From Terriglobia bacterium (GTDB taxonomy: Bacteria; Acidobacteriota; Terriglobia; Terriglobales; Acidobacteriaceae): a stretch of 64,000 nt of DNA. The notes below the pieces were generated by a model that had not been told where the DNA came from, ran no database searches, and was given only the letters and a program-made list of their open reading frames with translations. Where the stretch lies: contig JAVUPY010000025.1 of NCBI GenBank assembly GCA_032252755.1, positions 1-64,000 on the forward strand. The letters run 5' to 3'. Shown piece by piece: positions 29,880 to 63,811 of the stretch. Every line of letters begins with the position of its first letter. The stretch's first letter is position 1. A program made the translations under genes and the position numbers.

Positions 29880-30170
29880 TCAACTCGCATTCCGAACTGC
29901 CATCTCCATCCGCGAAACCGTGAAGTAGCTCATAAAATGTGTATCCAGCCGATGCGCATGGAATTCCGCCAGGGCATCCGTCAACCGGACTTCGACTGCA
30001 TTCATTTGAATCGCGCCGGTCTCCAGTCCGTGAGCGTACAGGTTCGTACTCGATAGCAGATACTGCATCAATGCCGCCTTCAATTCTTCATGAAGCTCGT
30101 GGCACGCATGGCAGTGTCCCGGCGTGAACGACAACAATTCCTGGATCGCGGATGACACAACGTTACGCAC
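29880..30170 (-). CDS. Hypothetical helical protein paired with a receiver domain
   Basis: 96 residues, mostly helical, with HCHACHELHEELK (three His and two Cys within 9 residues, a possible metal site) and no membrane segment. Starts 8 bp inside the end of the receiver gene, so the two are translationally coupled. No family recognised. Confidence 0.7.
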   Translation of the reverse strand: MRNVVSSAIQELLSFTPGHCHACHELHEELKAALMQYLLSSTNLYAHGLETGAIQMNAVEVRLTDALAEFHAHRLDTHFMSYFTVSRMEMAVRNAS

Positions 30171-30555
30171 AATCAGACTCCTGTTCTACACGCAGCGGCC
30201 ACTGCGCCAGCATTCGCCGGACGTGAGCGATGAACCCCTCCGGGTTCCATGGACTTTTCGGCACAAGAAGGTCGGCTACCGGCTTTTCCTCGCGACTCTC
30301 GGCCTCGTCGGCGACCGCAATTACCCCGACCTTGGGAAATCGCCGCCGCACAAACGGCAGGAACTCGAACCCGGAGAGCCGAGACAGCGCAGCATCGCTG
30401 ACGATTACCCGGGGCCGTACATGGTAGATCTGCCGCAGTGCATCGATCCCATCGGCCGCCGGATACGACTCCAGCCCGTGGTCCTCGATCAACTTCGCGA
30501 GCTCTTCCCGAAACGTCGGCTGCTCACAAACCACCATCACGCGCTTCCCAGACAT
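30163..30555 (-). CDS. Degenerate response-regulator receiver protein
   Basis: 130 residues, a stand-alone receiver (CheY-like) fold: KRVMVVCEQPTFREELAKLI, phospho-acceptor-position Asp in VIVSDAALSRLSGFE (about residue 55), and the Lys in LLVPKSPWNPEGF. The acidic pair after strand 1 is replaced by Glu-Gln and the usual Thr/Ser after strand 4 by Ala, so normal phosphorylation is doubtful. Probably a phosphorylation-independent or pseudo-receiver. No kinase gene nearby. Confidence 0.8.
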   Translation of the reverse strand: MSGKRVMVVCEQPTFREELAKLIEDHGLESYPAADGIDALRQIYHVRPRVIVSDAALSRLSGFEFLPFVRRRFPKVGVIAVADEAESREEKPVADLLVPKSPWNPEGFIAHVRRMLAQWPLRVEQESDCA

Positions 30556-30630
30556 TGCTCCCCCTGACTCGGACTCGGATGAACGCTGGTTAGTGAAGTG
30601 GAAGGGGAAAGCGTTTCAAAAACAGGAAAT

Positions 30631-30764: not shown

Positions 30765-31334
30765 TTGGAGCTGTACACATTCGACAACGATTATGTGCAG
30801 CGGCTGCGTGAGGGCGATCCTCCCACCCAGCAGCATTTCATTGCTTATTTCTCCGAGCTGCTGGCGATCAAATTGCGTGCGCGATTTTTCCCGCCGCATG
30901 TCATCGACGACATTCGCCAGGAGACTTTCGTCCGCGTCCTGGCCACACTGCAGAAGGACAGTGGACTTCGCCAGTCCGAGCGCCTCGGAGCGTTTGTTAA
31001 CTCCGTCTGCAACAACGTCATCATGGAGCAATACCGCTCCTCGATCCGCGCCTCGGGCTTCGAAGAAGGTTTCGATCCGCCAGACAAGAACATCGACATG
31101 GACCGCTCGCTGGTCTCGGAAGAGGCCAAAAAGCAGGTCAACAGAGTAATGGCTAAGATGCCGGATCGTGACCGCCGGCTCCTGAAAGCCACTTTTCTAG
31201 ACGAGTTGGACAAAGACCAGGTCTGCCGCGAGTTTGGGGTCGATCGCGACTACCTGAGAGTTCTGTTACACCGGGCCAAGTTACAGTTCCGGGCTCTATA
31301 TGAGCAGAACAAACACCGGGCCCGCGCCCGGTAA
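30765..31334 (+). CDS. ECF-type RNA polymerase sigma factor
   Basis: 189 residues. Region 2 (HVIDDIRQETFVRVLATLQK, core and -10 recognition) and region 4 HTH (DRDRRLLKATFLDELDKDQV ... FGVDRDYLRVLLHRAKLQFR) are present; region 3 is missing, as in ECF factors. TTG start with GGGAGAG at 5 nt. It heads a same-strand series with an anti-sigma-like protein, a beta-rich protein and a TPR-CHAT protein, which are its likely targets or partners. Confidence 0.88.
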   Translation: MELYTFDNDYVQRLREGDPPTQQHFIAYFSELLAIKLRARFFPPHVIDDIRQETFVRVLATLQKDSGLRQSERLGAFVNSVCNNVIMEQYRSSIRASGFEEGFDPPDKNIDMDRSLVSEEAKKQVNRVMAKMPDRDRRLLKATFLDELDKDQVCREFGVDRDYLRVLLHRAKLQFRALYEQNKHRARAR

Positions 31335-31477
31335 TCCAGGCCGGATTATGAAGATTCAACGAAACGTTGGGCCGCCTGGTGTCACAACCCAACGTGGAAT
31401 GAGCTGAATTGAAGCGCCCGAGGTGCCCCGTCGCGAGGTAATCGCGGATGCCACAGGGCGGAAGTCATGGAAGACGT

Positions 31478-32152
31478 ATGGATCATATTGAAGCGGTGAA
31501 GACCCACGCGGCTGAGAAGTATTTCCTGGGAGAGCTGGCAGGGACCGAGCGCGACGCCTTCGAGGAGCACTTTTTCGATTGTGAAGAGTGCGCGGCCGAC
31601 GTGAAAGCCACCGCCATCCTCGTCGACAACGTCCGCGAAGCCCTGCGCACGGCTCCGGACCAGAAGAAGTCGCCGGCTCGCGAGACGGCTGGGTTTCTGA
31701 ACTGGTGGCGCCCTGCCTATTCCCTTGCAGCCATTGCACTGTTGCTTGCCACCGTTGGCTACCAGAATTTCGTGCAGATCCCGCAACTGCACAATCAGGC
31801 TCTCACCAAGGCGGAGGCCCTGCCATCGTTCTCTTTGGTTGCGGCCGGATCGCGCGGCGCCGCGGGCGCGCTGGAAGTCACGGTTCCGGCCAACACTCCC
31901 TTTGGACTTTACGTCGATATTCCAAGCGACTCCAGCTTCACCCGATACAGCGCCGACATCCTCAGCCAGTCCGGCGCCCTGAAATTCTCCGTACCGATTT
32001 CCACCGCGCAGACGCAGAACACCGTGCAGTTGCTCATTCCCGGTGCCCTGCTCAACGAGGGCCAGTACGACCTGGTGATCCGGGGCCACAAGGCCGATTC
32101 CAGCGGCGCACAAGAAATCGCTCGACATCCCTTCGTGTTGCGTAGAAAGTAA
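31478..32152 (+). CDS. Zinc-finger anti-sigma-like membrane protein
   Basis: About 224 residues. N-terminal zf-HC2-like motif EEHFFDCEECAADV (His-x3-Cys-x2-Cys, about residues 30-38), typical of ZAS anti-sigma domains that hold an ECF factor. One membrane helix at about 78-95 (RPAYSLAAIALLLATVGYQN), then a C-terminal beta-rich extracytoplasmic domain of about 120 residues (LEVTVPANTPFGLYVDIPSD). Function as the anti-sigma of the preceding gene is inferred from domain and position. Confidence 0.8.
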   Translation: MDHIEAVKTHAAEKYFLGELAGTERDAFEEHFFDCEECAADVKATAILVDNVREALRTAPDQKKSPARETAGFLNWWRPAYSLAAIALLLATVGYQNFVQIPQLHNQALTKAEALPSFSLVAAGSRGAAGALEVTVPANTPFGLYVDIPSDSSFTRYSADILSQSGALKFSVPISTAQTQNTVQLLIPGALLNEGQYDLVIRGHKADSSGAQEIARHPFVLRRK

Positions 32153-32262: not shown

Positions 32263-33003
32263 ATGCAATCCATGCAACCTACATTCCTTTATCACGCACA
32301 AGCAAGCATATTGGGTGGGTTCATCACACGGCCCGAGCAGAGAGTGGTTGAAACCGTCGCGGGCGTGTCGTTGCCACTCACTGGTGGTCACCACCGCGCG
32401 CAGGTCAATGGATACTGTTATGATCTGCCGCGCATCACCATCGCCAGTGCTGTCGCGGAAGTTTCCGGCAGTAAGGATGGGAATGGCGTCTATAATACGA
32501 AAATCTCGACCAGCATCAACGGCCTGATCATCCAGGATGAAGTCACCGGTGAGACCATTATTACCGCCGATGGCCTCGAGATGAGCATCACGACACGCCA
32601 CACCGGCGCTGCCTGCGAAGCCACGGTTCAGATCGACAGCAGCTTCAAAAATCTTGTAATCAAGGGCGCGCCGGTAAACATTGTTCTGGACACATGCCTG
32701 AACGATGCGCAAACCTACGCAGAGTTCGATAAGAAGTACGGAAACAGCCCGAACGTCAGGAAATCCGTCCGGCCAGGGAAGATGCGGTGTTCGCTGATCA
32801 AGAAGCTCACACACCCGAACGCAAAACCTGCGACAGATCAGCAGAGCCTCTATGTCCCCGGATTCGGCACTATCTATCTCGGGGAAGTCTACCTGGCGGA
32901 CTCCACCAGACAGGTCAGGATGATGCGCCTCGAACTCGGATCACCCGTGGCAGGAACACTGGACCTCGGCGGCGGCTCGGGAAACGGAACACAATTTCCG
33001 TAA
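32263..33003 (+). CDS. Beta-rich hypothetical protein of the sigma/CHAT cassette
   Basis: 246 residues without signal peptide or membrane helix. Alternating strand pattern with many Thr/Ser/Val (ITIASAVAEVSGS, TSINGLIIQDEVTGETIITA, NLVIKGAPVNIVLD, VPGFGTIYLGEVYLADSTRQ, GTLDLGGGSGN). The order of strands vaguely recalls 'choice-of-anchor P' surface proteins, but this is a weak by-eye resemblance and no sorting signal is seen. Four Cys. It overlaps or abuts the CHAT gene and may be its substrate or toxin-like effector; this is inference. Confidence 0.65.
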   Translation: MQSMQPTFLYHAQASILGGFITRPEQRVVETVAGVSLPLTGGHHRAQVNGYCYDLPRITIASAVAEVSGSKDGNGVYNTKISTSINGLIIQDEVTGETIITADGLEMSITTRHTGAACEATVQIDSSFKNLVIKGAPVNIVLDTCLNDAQTYAEFDKKYGNSPNVRKSVRPGKMRCSLIKKLTHPNAKPATDQQSLYVPGFGTIYLGEVYLADSTRQVRMMRLELGSPVAGTLDLGGGSGNGTQFP

Positions 33004-35510
33004 TAGCACTAGCAATTTCTCTGTTTTTGACCCTGGTGGGCTGTACCCGCCAGGGTTCTTTATTAGAGCGAGATGAGTTCGAGAAAGCTCGCCTCCAGCT
33101 TGAACGCGGGGAATTGGTCCAGGCGCTCGGGGCCGCGCAATCCGGTGCCGCAAAGTATTCGAAGAGCCAACCTGACTGGTCGGAACGCTTCCGTGTTCTG
33201 GAAGCAGAAGTACTTATCTGGCAGGGCAGGTCAAAAGATGTTCTCGCGCTACTGAAAGATCCCGCGCCTGGGTCGGATAACCTCGAAGACGTAATCATTC
33301 GCCGCAAGATATTTCGCGCAATGGCCAACTATCGCCTCCAGAACTTTACTGAGTCGGCGGCAGAGCTGGCCGACGCCGAGCAGTTGGCAAAAGCAAAACG
33401 ACCGGACCTCATGGGAGAGGTTGCGATGGCCCAAGGTTCATTGGCCTCTTTACTGGGAAAATATCAAGACGCGATCAACTTGTATGGCATCGCATTGAAA
33501 TCAGCACGGCAGCAGAAGAGGCGTTTTCAGGAAATAAGTGCCCTTGGGAACCTCGGCTTTGTCGCCCTCCATCAGCAGAAATGGGGGGAGGCTATCGATT
33601 GGTTTTCGTTAGCTCAAGCCGGCGCGAATGAGTTGCACAACGAAATGATTGTGGGTAAGACCTTGGGCAACCTTGGGTGGTGCTATTACAGCCTCGGCGA
33701 TTTTGATCGCGCTTTGGACGACTACACACAGGCTGAAGCTGTCTCCGCAAAGCTCGGTGCCGTTTCCGACCGTTTTCGATGGCTCAATAATATTGGTCTC
33801 ATTTACGCGGAACAGCACGATTATGCGCGCGCATCCGCATACTATCGGCAGTCGCTCGACTTGGCTCGCTCTCTAGGAGATAGGACTGGTGCTAAAGATG
33901 CTCTTAGTAATATCGCGCTTGTGGAGCTGGAAACCGGGGATCTCGATTCTTCCGAAAAGCACAACCAGGAAGCAATTCGACTGCAACACGAAATCGGCAA
34001 CGAATCCGACCACTGGCCCGTTCTGAACTCTGCCCGCATCGCCTTCGGTCGCAAGCAGTATCCCGAGGCGACTAGACTCTTTCGAAAAGTTATCTCCGGT
34101 TCCGGGGGCGATCTCTGGCTTCGATGGGAAGCAGAATCGTATTTAGCCGCACTTTATGCTACTGAGGGCAGGGATTCCGTCGCATACCTCCAGTATAGGA
34201 AGGGGCTGGAGACGATCGACAAAGCGCGTTCCGCGATTACGAGTGACGAACAGCGTCTTTCATTCCTCAACACTGCAACCCAGTTCTACAACGACTACAT
34301 CGATTTCCTCATCAGCCATCATCGCGAGCGCGAGGCGCTGGCCGTCGCCGAGCACAGTCGCGCGCGAACTCTCGCCGATGGCCTCAAAATACCCGTCCAG
34401 CTTCGCGAATCGGCCTTCCACCCCGAGGAGAATGCCCGCCGTCTGAACTCGGTGGTGCTATCGTATTGGCTCAAACCCGAGCGCTCGTACCTGTGGGTGG
34501 TCACGCCTACGCGCGTCCAGCTCTTTCCTCTGCCGCCGCAGAAGGAGATCGACGCCGCCGTCGACGAATACCGCAAAGCCCTGCTCGGCCCCAGCCAGGC
34601 CCGCGACTCCGGCGCCGGCGAAAAGCTCTACCAGATGCTCGTCGCGCCCGCCGAAAAACTAATTACTGGTATGAATCGTCATCCCGAGCGGAGCGGCCGG
34701 CAGGCCGCGGAGTCGAGGGACCTGCATTCCCCTCGCGTCATCGTCATCCCCGACGGAAGCCTCGTAAACCTCAACTTCGAAACCCTGATGGTCCCGACCC
34801 CGCAACCCCACTACTGGATCGAAGACGCGACAATCTCCAGCGCCAGTTCCATCGCCCTGCTCAGCGCCTCGACCCACAATGGCACGATGGCCCATTCGCA
34901 CGATGGCACGATGCTTCTCATCGGAGCCCCCAATTACGCCGGCACCGATTTCCCCGAGCTCTCGCAAGCCAAAGCCGAGGTCCAGAAGGTCGAAAACTAC
35001 TTTCCCGCGAATGAAAGAACGGTGATCGAGGGCAAAGCCGCCGTCCCCTCGGCCTACGACGCGGCAAAACCAGGCGAATTCACATATATCCATTTCGTAG
35101 CCCACGCCACCGCCAGCCGCCTCAGCCCGCTCGACTCGTCCATTATCCTTTCCAAGCAGGGCGACGCCTACAAACTCTACGCCCGCGACATCATGCAGCA
35201 GCCGCTCAAGGCCGAGCTGGTAACCATTTCGGCATGTTACGGGGCGGGGAACCGGTCTTACTCGGGCGAGGGCCTCGTCGGGCTGTCCTGGGCTTTCCTG
35301 CGCGCCGGGGCCCACAACGTGATCGCCGCCCTCTGGGAGGTGAACGATGCGTCAACACCGCAGCTAATGGACAATCTTTACAGGAATATCGGTAATGGCG
35401 AGGATCCCGCCACCGCTCTGCGGCACGCCAAACTCGACATGCTGCACTCCCAGTCCGTCTACCGCCGCCCCTTTTACTGGGGCGCCTTCCAGCTTTACGT
35501 CGGGTCGTGA
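32994..35510 (+). CDS. TPR-CHAT protease, predicted lipoprotein
   Basis: About 838 residues. N-terminus VIALAISLFLTLVGC is a lipoprotein signal with lipobox LVGC. About ten TPR units follow (residues 40-460, e.g. GNLGWCYYSLGDFDRALDDY, NNIGLIYAEQHDYARASAYY), then a linker and a C-terminal CHAT (caspase-like) domain. The His (HFVAHATAS, about 703) and Cys (ISACYGAGN, about 747) dyad is intact. No ATG/GTG/TTG fits the signal peptide; ATT 32994 or TTG 33027 are possible, ATG 32787 would overlap the previous gene by 217 bp. Two dispersed repeats are read through in frame (34679-34733, 34879-34913). Start confidence is low, family call is high. Confidence 0.87.
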   Translation: MSVIALAISLFLTLVGCTRQGSLLERDEFEKARLQLERGELVQALGAAQSGAAKYSKSQPDWSERFRVLEAEVLIWQGRSKDVLALLKDPAPGSDNLEDVIIRRKIFRAMANYRLQNFTESAAELADAEQLAKAKRPDLMGEVAMAQGSLASLLGKYQDAINLYGIALKSARQQKRRFQEISALGNLGFVALHQQKWGEAIDWFSLAQAGANELHNEMIVGKTLGNLGWCYYSLGDFDRALDDYTQAEAVSAKLGAVSDRFRWLNNIGLIYAEQHDYARASAYYRQSLDLARSLGDRTGAKDALSNIALVELETGDLDSSEKHNQEAIRLQHEIGNESDHWPVLNSARIAFGRKQYPEATRLFRKVISGSGGDLWLRWEAESYLAALYATEGRDSVAYLQYRKGLETIDKARSAITSDEQRLSFLNTATQFYNDYIDFLISHHREREALAVAEHSRARTLADGLKIPVQLRESAFHPEENARRLNSVVLSYWLKPERSYLWVVTPTRVQLFPLPPQKEIDAAVDEYRKALLGPSQARDSGAGEKLYQMLVAPAEKLITGMNRHPERSGRQAAESRDLHSPRVIVIPDGSLVNLNFETLMVPTPQPHYWIEDATISSASSIALLSASTHNGTMAHSHDGTMLLIGAPNYAGTDFPELSQAKAEVQKVENYFPANERTVIEGKAAVPSAYDAAKPGEFTYIHFVAHATASRLSPLDSSIILSKQGDAYKLYARDIMQQPLKAELVTISACYGAGNRSYSGEGLVGLSWAFLRAGAHNVIAALWEVNDASTPQLMDNLYRNIGNGEDPATALRHAKLDMLHSQSVYRRPFYWGAFQLYVGS
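34679..34733. repeat. GTCATCCCGAGCGGAGC repeat inside the CHAT ORF
   Basis: TCATCCCGAGCGGAGCGGCC ... GCCGCGGAGTCGAGGGACCT, a dispersed palindromic element, here translated as HPERSGRQAAESRDL between two CHAT-domain strands. Shorter relatives at 45711-45738 and 59255-59287. Confidence 0.65.
34879..34913. repeat. GATGGCACGATGGC repeat inside the CHAT ORF
   Basis: ATGGCACGATGGCCCATTCG followed by CACGATGGCACGATG, translated as NGTMAHSHDGTM. Related to copies at 9500 and 40891. Confidence 0.5.
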
Positions 35511-35550
35511 ACGGAGTGTGGAAAAACACAACAGAAATATTCACAAATAT

Positions 35551-35580
35551 TTGAAACGTATCCACAGCTTTTCGCACTAT
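35551..35580 (+). promoter_or_regulatory. Possible promoter of the structured RNA
   Basis: TTGAAA (35551-35556), 18-bp spacer, CACTAT (35575-35580), within an A/T-rich segment. It would start transcription at about 35586, the first base of the RNA closing stem. The -10 match is weak (3 of 6). Confidence 0.35.
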
Positions 35581-35585
35581 CATGT

Positions 35586-35772
35586 GTGAGTCGGTGCTGG
35601 CGTAGTAAGGGAGTGGGCAACCGCACCCGTTACGCTATGCCAGGCAAATGGGATCGACGACGCTACTTTCGGGGGAGGGTGGCGTCGGCGGTCCCTTTTC
35701 GCGAGCACTGCCTCACTTCCAATACACGAAGCAAGCGGGCACGAAGTTGGGAAGCTTCGTGCCTTTGTTTTT
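35586..35772 (+). ncRNA. Candidate structured non-coding RNA (three-way junction plus terminator)
   Basis: No gene fits here. Three nested helices can be drawn. P1: 35586-35598 with 35704-35716 (12 of 13 pairs). P2: arms GGCGTAG / CTATGCC (35599-35605, 35635-35641), continuing inward with TAA/TTA, GGG/CCC and GTGG/CCGC to a GCAA tetraloop. P3: 35650-35666 with 35679-35695 (16 of 17 pairs counting G-U). A rho-independent terminator follows. About 185 nt in total. Length recalls 6S RNA, but the fold is a three-way junction. It follows the CHAT gene on the same strand. Identity unknown. Confidence 0.65.
35738..35772 (+). terminator. Rho-independent terminator
   Basis: GGCACGAAG / CTTCGTGCC stem (35738-35746, 35755-35763), 8-nt loop, then TTTGTTTTT. 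Ends the candidate RNA and any readthrough from the CHAT gene. Confidence 0.88.
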
Positions 35773-35801
35773 ACGCTGCGTCCTTCCGCTGTGATCACGA
35801 G

Positions 35802-36344
35802 CTAAGCGAGATATCTGCTTCTCAGTGACAAAACCCCCCCATACGTACCGACCCCTTGCCGCGGCAGGTCCCGCGGATGGCGTCTCGGGAGCCACTTGCC
35901 ATTGCGGTGAATCTTCGCGGGTAGTTCGATCAGCTTCACCGAATGCGCAACGCCTTTTTCATCTGTAATCGTTGAATTGAACAGCGCCGGCGGCCCTACG
36001 ATTCCTTTTTTTAAACTTCCGACGGCAACCATCACGTCCACCGTTCGTCCGTCTTCGGTGTCGAAATTTGCCTCTACACAGATCGGAATCTCGGAACCGC
36101 GATCCGCGGGGTTGCCGGTCTGCTCACCGCAATCGTTAACTTCCCATGCGATCTTCGCGCCGTCGCTCTCGCTCTCGAGAAAGAACTTGAGGCTGACTCT
36201 CGGCAGGCTCTTGTCGAACGTCGAGACTAGGACGTTCTGCCCCTTTTCAAGAGCGGCTCTCTCCTGCTGCGACTCGGGCGTGCTCTGGGCAGCAAGAACC
36301 GCTGGTACCAGCACGAGAACTGCGAGTTTCAACGTTCTCATCAT
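35802..36344 (-). CDS. Secreted hypothetical protein
   Basis: About 180 residues. Signal peptide MMRTLKLAVLVLVPAVLAAQ. Mature part is a probable beta-domain (LPRVSLKFFLESESDGAKIA, two Cys in NDCGEQ and IPICVEANF that may pair). The last 25 residues (RRHPRDLPRQGVGTYGGVLS) are of different composition, encoded by GC-palindromic sequence, and may be a repeat-derived tail. GTG 36353 is an alternative start; ATG 36344 has TGGTGGGG upstream. No family recognised. Confidence 0.65.
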   Translation of the reverse strand: MMRTLKLAVLVLVPAVLAAQSTPESQQERAALEKGQNVLVSTFDKSLPRVSLKFFLESESDGAKIAWEVNDCGEQTGNPADRGSEIPICVEANFDTEDGRTVDVMVAVGSLKKGIVGPPALFNSTITDEKGVAHSVKLIELPAKIHRNGKWLPRRHPRDLPRQGVGTYGGVLSLRSRYLA

Positions 36345-36558
36345 CGCGATCACCCCACCAGTTTAGTCCCGCTCCGGTCATCTTGCGAAAACCTGTAAGT
36401 ATCTGAGTGCCAATAGGTTGCATCCTTTGGCGGATGCCTTCCCCGGCCAACAGCGGCGTCCGCAATCTCATCCAAACACAAGACGCAAGAAAATAACTTT
36501 TCCAGCGCTGCCGGACTGGCCACGGCACGATGCTGATTTAACCCGTGTGGGAGGATAC

Positions 36559-41435: not shown

Positions 41436-41610
41436 AACGCACCTCTTGTAAGCGGGATTCCCAGCGCCCCGAAGCTAGTCCAATCATGTGCAGAGGTCAA
41501 GAAGAAACCGGGCCCATGCCGATCCGCGACAAACCATTTCTCTCCATGCTATCCCTTGTTCTCCCGTTACATGCGCAACCGGCAACACCCGATTTATACT
41601 GACTGTTCCG

Positions 41611-42429
41611 ATGGCCGCCAATCTGGAACTCCTGATGGCCGAAGCTCGTCGCCGGGCCGTGCAGTCTCGCGCCACCGCCGACCTGCGCCTGCTGGAGCAG
41701 CGGGCCGTCACGCATTCGCCCCGCGGTTTCCGGCGCCGGCTCCAGGCGGTCAGCGCGACCGGGCCGGCAGTCATTGCCGAGTTGAAGAAGGCCTCGCCTT
41801 CAAAAGGCATCATTCGTTCTGCGTTCCACGTTGGCGCGCTCGCTTTTCAACTTGCCTCGGCCGGTGCCGCGGCCCTCTCCGTGCTTACCGAAGAGGACCA
41901 TTTTCTAGGTTCCCTCAGCAATCTCCTCGAGACCTCGGCCGCCACCGAACTGCCCTGTCTGCGCAAGGACTTCATTGTCGATCCTTTCCAACTGCTCGAG
42001 GCTCGCGCCCACCGCGCCGACGCGGTTCTGCTGATCGTTGCCGGGCTGAGCCAGCCGGAGCTGCGATTCCTCTATTCGAAAGCCAAGGATCACGAACTCG
42101 ACGTTCTCGTGGAAGTACACGACGAGGAGGAACTCGACCGCGCCATGGAAATCGGTGCTGAGACCATCGGCGTCAACAGCCGCAACCTCAAGACCTTCGA
42201 AGTCGATCTTCAGACTTCAATTCGCCTGTCCGAGCGATTGCCGGCAAATGTCCTGAAGGTCGCGGAAAGCGGCATTCACACGCCCCAGGACATCGCGATG
42301 TTGCGCGCCGCCGGCTTCCAGGCGTTCCTTGTCGGCGAATCGCTCATGCGCGCCGATTATCCCGGCAAAGCCCTCCGCGAACTTCTCGATGCGGTCGCCG
42401 TCGCCGAAAGCAGTGGAGCTGTCAGCTGA
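41611..42429 (+). CDS. trpC: Indole-3-glycerol phosphate synthase
   Basis: 272 residues, the usual size. Ring closure step of tryptophan synthesis. Visible: AELKKASPSKGIIR (substrate-binding Lys-Ala-Ser-Pro-Ser), LSVLTEEDHFLGSL, LPCLRKDFIVDPFQLLEARA (catalytic Lys), GVNSRNLKTFEVDL and AESGIHTPQDI. A TATACT box ends 10 nt before the ATG, hinting at a nearly leaderless mRNA, but without a good -35. First gene of the aromatic cluster; its stop overlaps the trpF start (TGATG). Confidence 0.94.
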   Translation: MAANLELLMAEARRRAVQSRATADLRLLEQRAVTHSPRGFRRRLQAVSATGPAVIAELKKASPSKGIIRSAFHVGALAFQLASAGAAALSVLTEEDHFLGSLSNLLETSAATELPCLRKDFIVDPFQLLEARAHRADAVLLIVAGLSQPELRFLYSKAKDHELDVLVEVHDEEELDRAMEIGAETIGVNSRNLKTFEVDLQTSIRLSERLPANVLKVAESGIHTPQDIAMLRAAGFQAFLVGESLMRADYPGKALRELLDAVAVAESSGAVS

Positions 42430-63697: not shown

Positions 63698-63724
63698 CAA
63701 AGTGCGCAATCGAAGGCTCAACGA

Positions 63725-63811
63725 GTGCGCGTAAGCGCACGTTAGAAAGTAGCCCCGGGCGTAAGCCCGGGGTATTTCTGCCGCTAAAGGGAGGAGTCGG
63801 CTTTAGCCGAC
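63725..63811. repeat. Three hairpins in the merR-S9 peptidase gap
   Basis: GTGCGC GTAA GCGCAC (63725-63740), CCCCGGGC GTAA GCCCGGGG (63753-63772, then TATTTCT) and GTCGGCT TT AGCCGAC (63796-63811). The GTAA-loop hairpins look like dispersed elements; the middle one may help end convergent transcripts. Confidence 0.6.

Follow-up and report, generated by a model that had tools for sequence, protein, structure and literature searches.

A structured non-coding RNA with its own terminator is supported at positions 35586-35772 of a 64,000-nucleotide stretch of DNA from a Terriglobia bacterium (the window), and it rather likely constitutes the non-coding arm of the local ECF-sigma/CHAT regulon, made by the ECF sigma factor and acting via its loops. 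We read this segment as a structured RNA because computation establishes a significant fold, an intrinsic terminator, an ECF-type promoter motif, conservation of the locus and compensatory changes in a homologue from a relative (genome G030), and because the RNA is present in a single copy. The sequence features suggest that it is expressed. The candidate status and the terminator proposed in the earlier note are thereby borne out; it did not mention an ECF regulon or related RNAs, both described below. Coordinates are collected in Table 1.

Table 1. Predicted features of the RNA and its locus (positions in the window)
Feature	Position	Strand	Basis or remark
Response-regulator receiver protein	30163..30555	-	Response_reg 36.5 bits; GGGGGAG in ribosome-binding region
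ECF-type site before response-regulator gene	30590..30618	-	one mismatch; 27.7 bits (30621), rank 1; rank 2 with unselected matrix
ECF sigma factor gene	30765..31334	+	TIGR02937 sigma70-ECF 47.9 bits (cut-off 42.9); Sigma70_r4_2 under Pfam cut-off
Weaker ECF-type site before anti-sigma gene	31360..31388	+	two mismatches; 18.1 bits (31357), rank 3
Zinc-finger anti-sigma gene	31478..32152	+	zf-HC2 23.5 bits (cut-off 22.2); longer frame 31448-32152
Gene X	32263..33003	+	choice-of-anchor-P-like just under cut-off; GGGGGAG in ribosome-binding region
TPR-CHAT protein	32787..35510	+	CHAT 166.3 bits; frame opens 32787
RNA promoter, ECF-sigma-type	35552..35580	+	TGAAACG-N16-CACTAT; sole perfect genome match; same elements and spacing in G030
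Small RNA gene	35586..35772	+	predicted start ~35586, end in U run; fold, terminator, promoter, G030 homologue
P1 5' arm	35586..35598	+	12/13 pairs
P2 hairpin	35599..35641	+	15 pairs; GCAA tetraloop 35617-35620
P3 long hairpin	35644..35702	+	25 pairs; G-rich apex
P1 3' arm	35704..35716	+	pairs with 35586-35598
Intrinsic terminator	35737..35772	+	helix 35737-35764, 12 pairs, then TTGTTTTT at 35765-35772

The minimum free energy of the + strand is -103.1 kcal/mol, compared with a mean of -67.0 (sd 4.2) for dinucleotide-shuffled sequences, corresponding to z -8.52, and 0/200 shuffles match the native value. When 2,554 further 187-nt stretches were sampled from the window in 50-nt steps on both strands, none reached this energy, the best being -90.2, and the reverse strand folds to just -68.8; the impression that such dense pairing exceeds chance expectation was thus correct. 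Along the RNA, P1 closes a junction of P2 and P3, followed by a short linker and then the terminator. The earlier note had described three nested helices, of which P1 holds as counted, with 12 of 13 pairs, while P3 has more pairs than had been given; the GCAA tetraloop it reported caps P2, and the classical terminator it placed at the end is present, with its helix and U run. The apical loop of P3 is GGGG within CGGGGGAGGG (35670-35679), and the loop region of the terminator, TTGGGAAG, is G-rich too. This terminator is the sole one in the terminator scan of the + strand between 35000 and 36500. As had been stated, the RNA lies in a non-coding gap after the CHAT gene, between its stop (35510) and an opposite-strand reading frame (35802-36353). 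An 80-aa GTG frame passes through the RNA stretch, and no sign of gene status was noticed for it.

The gene cluster beside the RNA is of a stress-signalling kind, and its ECF sigma factor gene lies 4.8 kb upstream of the RNA. The anti-sigma protein also matches NF052375, under the cut-off. The true start of the CHAT protein is probably further inside the frame, before a lipobox-like LVGC, and the protein is probably a lipoprotein; His773 and Cys817, which we take to be the CHAT dyad, are kept in G030. A trpC gene (IGPS) follows the CHAT/RNA locus both in the window (41488-42429) and in G030, at differing distances.

The earlier note had suggested a promoter starting at the first base of P1, which proved wrong: the sigma-70 promoter scan of 35000-36500 gave none, and an ECF-type site lies upstream, with P1 starting 6 nt past its -10 element. 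This site is the one perfect match to TGAAACG-N16-CACTAT in the whole 5.4-Mb genome. With one mismatch allowed, 13 sites were found genome-wide versus 10 for a reversed control, and the motif is therefore at background outside the locus. G030 has two perfect sites, one before its RNA and the other before a response regulator (Response_reg 37.3 bits). The pattern first noticed as common to the window and G030 RNAs was TGAAACGT-N14-GCACTA, and a scan of CHAT loci with it revealed many more sites. Allowing one mismatch or less, TGAAACG-N16-CACTA occurs at 52 sites across 74 CHAT loci, among them those of the window and G030, compared with 1 site for the reversed form.

Seventy-two upstream regions, none from the window genome (G000) or G030, supplied 37 sites for a motif matrix. 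It gave the RNA promoter 26.2 bits at 35549 (+), rank 2 of 127,924 positions, with 12.2 bits for the next position after the three sites of Table 1, values that are partly circular in that the sites had been collected with a pattern from the window and G030 promoters. We therefore consider alongside it a check matrix taken at a fixed offset from 34 non-seed RNAs of the family described below, free of motif selection, in which the RNA site ranks first of 127,926 positions (15.6 bits), by a small margin over the response-regulator site (15.4) and the next position (14.3). With this unselected matrix the anti-sigma site falls outside the first eight in the window and the G030 site outside the first three of its locus, and when cut to its most informative columns the matrix fails to pick out the sites. 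Overall, the sequence indicates a putative ECF-type promoter directly before the RNA. Autoregulation is usual for ECF sigma loci, and for this reason we infer that the promoters of the RNA, the response regulator and the anti-sigma gene are recognised by the sigma factor of the locus.

The RNA is present in one copy in the 5.4-Mb genome, the six other matches spanning just 15-20 nt. It is therefore no dispersed repeat; the earlier note had stated that its claim would be refuted if the segment were a dispersed transposable repeat without transcripts. A MITE-like element would show several genomic copies. The Rfam comparison it proposed (6S, Acido-1 and others) yielded, with Rfam 15, no family at 35586-35772 that reached its gathering threshold; relaxing the limit to E <= 10 added only weak matches, far under their gathering scores, and the 6S model gave no match at either setting. 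Blastn-type homologue searches of 60 relatives, plasmids and phages returned matches of 16-41 nt or nothing. A single-sequence model, R1, gave three foreign matches in 200 genomes of the taxonomic family (L049, L050 and L051), which we took as chance; L049 and L050 sit in long reading frames. Its best score over 44 CHAT loci of named relatives was <= 13.9 bits. These 44 loci all belong to Acidobacteria or subgroups, mostly as MAGs, and many are from Acidobacteriaceae or Candidatus Sulfotelmatobacter. The downstream 183-aa protein, tried as a synteny anchor, has relatives in 9/100 genomes, the window's own counted, and R1 detected no RNA next to those from other genomes (L038-L047). The combined promoter/RNA pattern, with up to three mismatches, was found in 24/398 genomes of the taxonomic family. 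Among the matches listed, the only further site behind a CHAT gene was in G137 (L228 / L094, contig C63), where an ECF-type site ~200 nt behind CHAT is followed by different hairpins and then an ORF; it was rejected.

A CHAT match at E <= 1e-60 occurs in 139/398 genomes of the taxonomic family, and 30 of these loci, the window's own among them, were taken for an R1 search. The other 29 gave two matches, L054 in G030 (14.9 bits) and L069 (14.4 bits). L054 lies behind the closest CHAT orthologue, which has 52% identity. The R1 score alone proves nothing here; we accept homology because place, promoter and fold agree, making G030 the sole sequence homologue of the window RNA known. G030 is the single representative of its genus among the genomes analysed, and the searches turned up no second member of the genus to which the window belongs. 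Its promoter elements are the same as those of the window, as is TGCTGGCG within the RNA, and the spacing agrees too, with 0 mismatches at 22 positions of a pattern composed from the window and G030 themselves, and the G030 RNA, folded independently, has z -4.5.

The search for compensatory changes that the earlier note called for was possible at this locus. The two RNAs were aligned by hand, since MAFFT misaligned the 3' half of P3. Of 36 comparable pairs, 14 are identical, 7 differ on one side and 10 on both sides, and 5 are broken. Pairing is thus kept at 31/36 alignable pairs, compared with 12-19 in controls slid by 1-3 columns, with the reservation that the alignment was made partly outward from the P3 loop, which favours pairing, and that 16 further pairs were unalignable; 29 of the 36 pairs are present in both independent folds. 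Conservation is strongest in P3 (18/19 alignable pairs kept, 6 via both-side changes, with the letters GGGGGAG retained) and in P1 (9/10, 2 via both-side changes), and P2 is weakly kept (4/7, 2 via both-side changes). By eye, the G030 RNA has no U-run terminator. The next gene after it is trpC (IGPS 268.7 bits; L231 7639-8448).

Within the 180 nt behind the ECF-type promoters of relatives, further structured RNAs were found. A covariance model, R2, was built from seven homologous RNAs located before the sigma gene. At E <= 0.1 it matches in 72/398 genomes of one taxonomic family, and at E <= 1e-7 it gives 42 matches in 39/398 genomes, where matches above 1e-7, many of them the last hairpin alone, are excluded and a partial match in G315 is counted. 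For 35 of the 42 RNAs (28/35 without seeds), a CHAT match follows 0.1-4.1 kb downstream, on the same contig and in the same orientation. The promoter motif, with one mismatch or less, is found upstream of 40/41 aligned members (33/34 without the seven seeds), 33-37 nt ahead of the RNA in 36 members. This association is non-circular, because the motif came from the window-type RNA and the family RNAs from the model. In an alignment of 41 rows (A9), 24/33 pairs have both-side changes versus 14.6 in shuffles, amounting to 99 cells versus 27.1, and 90.7% of cells pair versus 37-44% when slid; fitting this alignment to the model favours pairing, and two matches of a further model, R3 (L224, L225), were left out. 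The last hairpin of the R2-type RNAs carries an almost invariant loop, GGGGAAG, followed in several members by U runs, as judged by eye. An Rfam search of sixteen R2-type loci gave no match. R3 matched in 13 of 200 genomes of the order, all from the same taxonomic family, and in 1 of 199 genomes of the phylum, from that family again.

The R2 covariance model has no match in the window, and R3 scores the window RNA at 5.6 bits. The window RNA and the R2/R3 family have in common the promoter motif, locus, strand, G-rich loops and terminator, but they differ in place, the former lying behind CHAT and the latter before sigma, on the other side of the operon. Where the last hairpin of the family shows GGGGAAG, the window RNA has TTGGGAAGC in the terminator loop region and CGGGGGAGGG at the P3 apex. 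We keep the window RNA outside the family because its place differs and the covariance models do not connect the two.

Several arrangements of these elements were seen in relatives. Tandem pairs of R2-type RNAs occur at L215 (G150) and L221 (G292), with an ECF-type site before each copy, that of the second copy in L221 having two mismatches. In G028, a second R2-type RNA with an ECF-type promoter (L218, G028:C10:617615-617728) lies 1.2 Mb from that genome's CHAT match. At L109 (- 4868) and L116 (- 7938), ECF-type sites are followed by GGGGGA-loop hairpins that give no strong R2 match. ECF-promoted anti-sigma leaders in G101 (L155 / L233) and G015 (L158 / L234) contain hairpins with G-rich loops, TTCTGGGGAGGA and GAAATGGGGGAGTA. 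In the same two genomes (L229 / L153 in G015, L230 / L175 in G101), a convergent ECF-type site behind CHAT, perfect in G015 and with one mismatch in G101, precedes a small frame, and the two small frames look alike by eye.

In 24/30 family loci, a start codon near the front of the sigma frame comes right after CUUCCCA- or CCUCCCA-like letters, which are complementary, counting G-U pairs, to the GGGGAAG or GGGGGGAA loop. The script rule passes 26/30 loci versus 9.0 expected at random positions, and two loci (L188, L211) were dropped as their start codon is far inside; the start codon actually used is an assumption throughout, and the loop and sigma-start letters of the relatives are confounded by descent. 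All four frames tested (4/4) score as ECF sigma factors, exceeding the cut-off of TIGR02937. This complementarity suggests that the family RNA may brake translation of its own sigma factor. The sigma start of the window genome (G000) has no complement to the RNA loops. Among 24 duplex tests in the window there was one outlier, P3 with the anti-sigma start region (0/100 shuffles).

These results are brought together in the following mechanism. The RNA would be a stand-alone gene: the ECF sigma factor, whose own gene lies 4.8 kb upstream, would begin its transcription, and the intrinsic terminator would end it. The RNA would represent the non-coding output of a local regulon comprising the response regulator, the anti-sigma/X/CHAT operon and the RNA. 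When the anti-sigma factor lets the sigma factor go, the RNA would be made. Its rigid three-way-junction body would display G-rich loops, CGGGGGAGGG of P3 and TTGGGAAG of the terminator. These would target mRNAs where translation starts, and the most likely effect would be a brake on the response; in relatives, the equivalent loop is complementary to the sigma mRNA around its own translation start. Production of the RNA, its action in trans and its action by loop pairing are what we infer.

The main rival is a decoy, or sponge, in which the loops mimic the GGGGGAG of ribosome-binding regions, soak up a protein or RNA binder and so relieve repression, with no pairing to mRNAs. We give it this rank because both gene X and the response-regulator gene carry GGGGGAG where ribosomes would bind, and still regard it as unlikely. 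Of the nine GGGGGAG occurrences in the window, one belongs to gene X, one to the response-regulator gene and one to the P3 loop; each of six RNAs from relatives (L216, L217, L219, L220, L222 and L223) contains two GGGGA motifs; and GGGGA stands in a hairpin loop at 6/41 ECF sites outside R2-type loci versus 3/300 random stretches, or at 4/39 without the window and G030. Against this, nine occurrences compare with a shuffle mean of 7.9, and nine or more were reached in 38/100 shuffles; the frequency of GGGGGAG is therefore not above chance. Alternatively, the RNA may be the 3'-UTR and terminator of the CHAT operon, protecting the mRNA end, with the ECF-type site incidental. Its position 75 nt after CHAT on the same strand, and the lack of any other + strand terminator in the region scanned, would fit, but the one perfect motif site of the genome stands directly before P1, promoter spacing and RNA start are kept in G030, and in relatives the RNAs precede CHAT instead of following it, leaving this explanation improbable.

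We see little prospect that the RNA is a cis-regulatory leader whose downstream gene was lost in the window. The anti-sigma leaders of G101 and G015, with their ECF-promoted G-rich-loop hairpins, offer a precedent, and two of them (L155, L158) end, by eye, at MNH/MDH-type anti-sigma starts; the window, however, has a terminator and then an opposite-strand frame, with no + strand gene directly after the RNA. A further reading, for which we hold equally slender expectations, is that the RNA, bound to the TPR-CHAT protein or to partners of it, adjusts anti-sigma cleavage. The module would then be a layout cousin of CASP with an RNA slot, in which unrelated-looking RNAs with the same G-rich loop would occupy places before sigma, before anti-sigma or behind CHAT. 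Least probable is the remnant of a MITE-like mobile repeat or a chance palindrome: the long inverted repeats with no evident coding function speak for it, but the RNA is single-copy, its counterpart in G030 holds the same place with compensatory changes, and the promoter is kept.

The RNAs nearest in function to the regulon RNA that we favour would be MicA and RybB, the RpoE-dependent sRNAs of E. coli (PMC8103513), and FoxI and FoxJ, sigma-E small RNAs of Fusobacterium reported to lower rpoE itself (PMC11005410). In the accessible parts of these sources, they are likewise short RNAs from an ECF promoter that form the non-coding arm of a sigma regulon, and the suggested sigma brake in relatives parallels the lowering of rpoE by FoxI and FoxJ (PMC11005410). 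The window RNA differs in lying inside the sigma/anti-sigma locus and in being strongly structured, sequence having been compared via Rfam alone. Judging from the same accessible parts, Proteobacteria and Fusobacteriota have ECF sigma regulons with a small-RNA arm (PMC8103513, PMC11005410), and we found none for Acidobacteriota in the literature searched. Nor is the window RNA reported in the literature on ECF sigma/CHAT and on small or structured RNAs of Acidobacteria, in a search that lay mostly outside the subscription literature. If the preferred reading is true, Acidobacteriota would have an ECF small-RNA arm whose promoter motif is defined, accompanied by a family of covarying RNAs in 39/398 genomes of one taxonomic family, and an RNA would be tied to the TPR-CHAT/ECF layout known from CRISPR type III-E.

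In that system, CASP, the consulted part of the source describes Csx29 TPR-CHAT, Csx30 and CASP-sigma, with sigma-binding motifs inside the locus (PMC10028731). The likeness consists in a TPR-CHAT protease, a sigma inhibitor and an ECF sigma factor in one locus, whereas the window has a zf-HC2 anti-sigma instead of Csx30, and its CHAT protein, by eye, is probably a lipoprotein. The 40 PDB matches of the CHAT protein all cover query residues 194-403, the TPR part, and none is named Csx29; PADLOC, run on six proteins of the region, matched CHAT alone, with a generic TPR model. From these comparisons the protein does not appear to be a Csx29-type TPR-CHAT. ECF54 sigma factors also adjoin a CHAT-domain protein and are named among factors without an anti-sigma (PMC8999054); the resemblance is one of gene context, an anti-sigma is present in the window, and the description of ECF54, as far as the text was available, mentions no RNA (PMC8999054).

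6S RNA is one long bulged hairpin. The length of ~185 nt likens the window RNA to it and the three-way junction sets it apart, in agreement with the earlier remark on a 6S-like length in another shape and with the absence of an Rfam match. Acido-Lenti-1 (RF01687) and Acido-1 are described, in the part of the source available, as structured RNAs of Acidobacteria (PMC2864571), and neither matches at the window RNA. Acido-Lenti-1 does occur elsewhere in the window, at 63724-63772 (-), with 41.8 bits versus a gathering score of 37.
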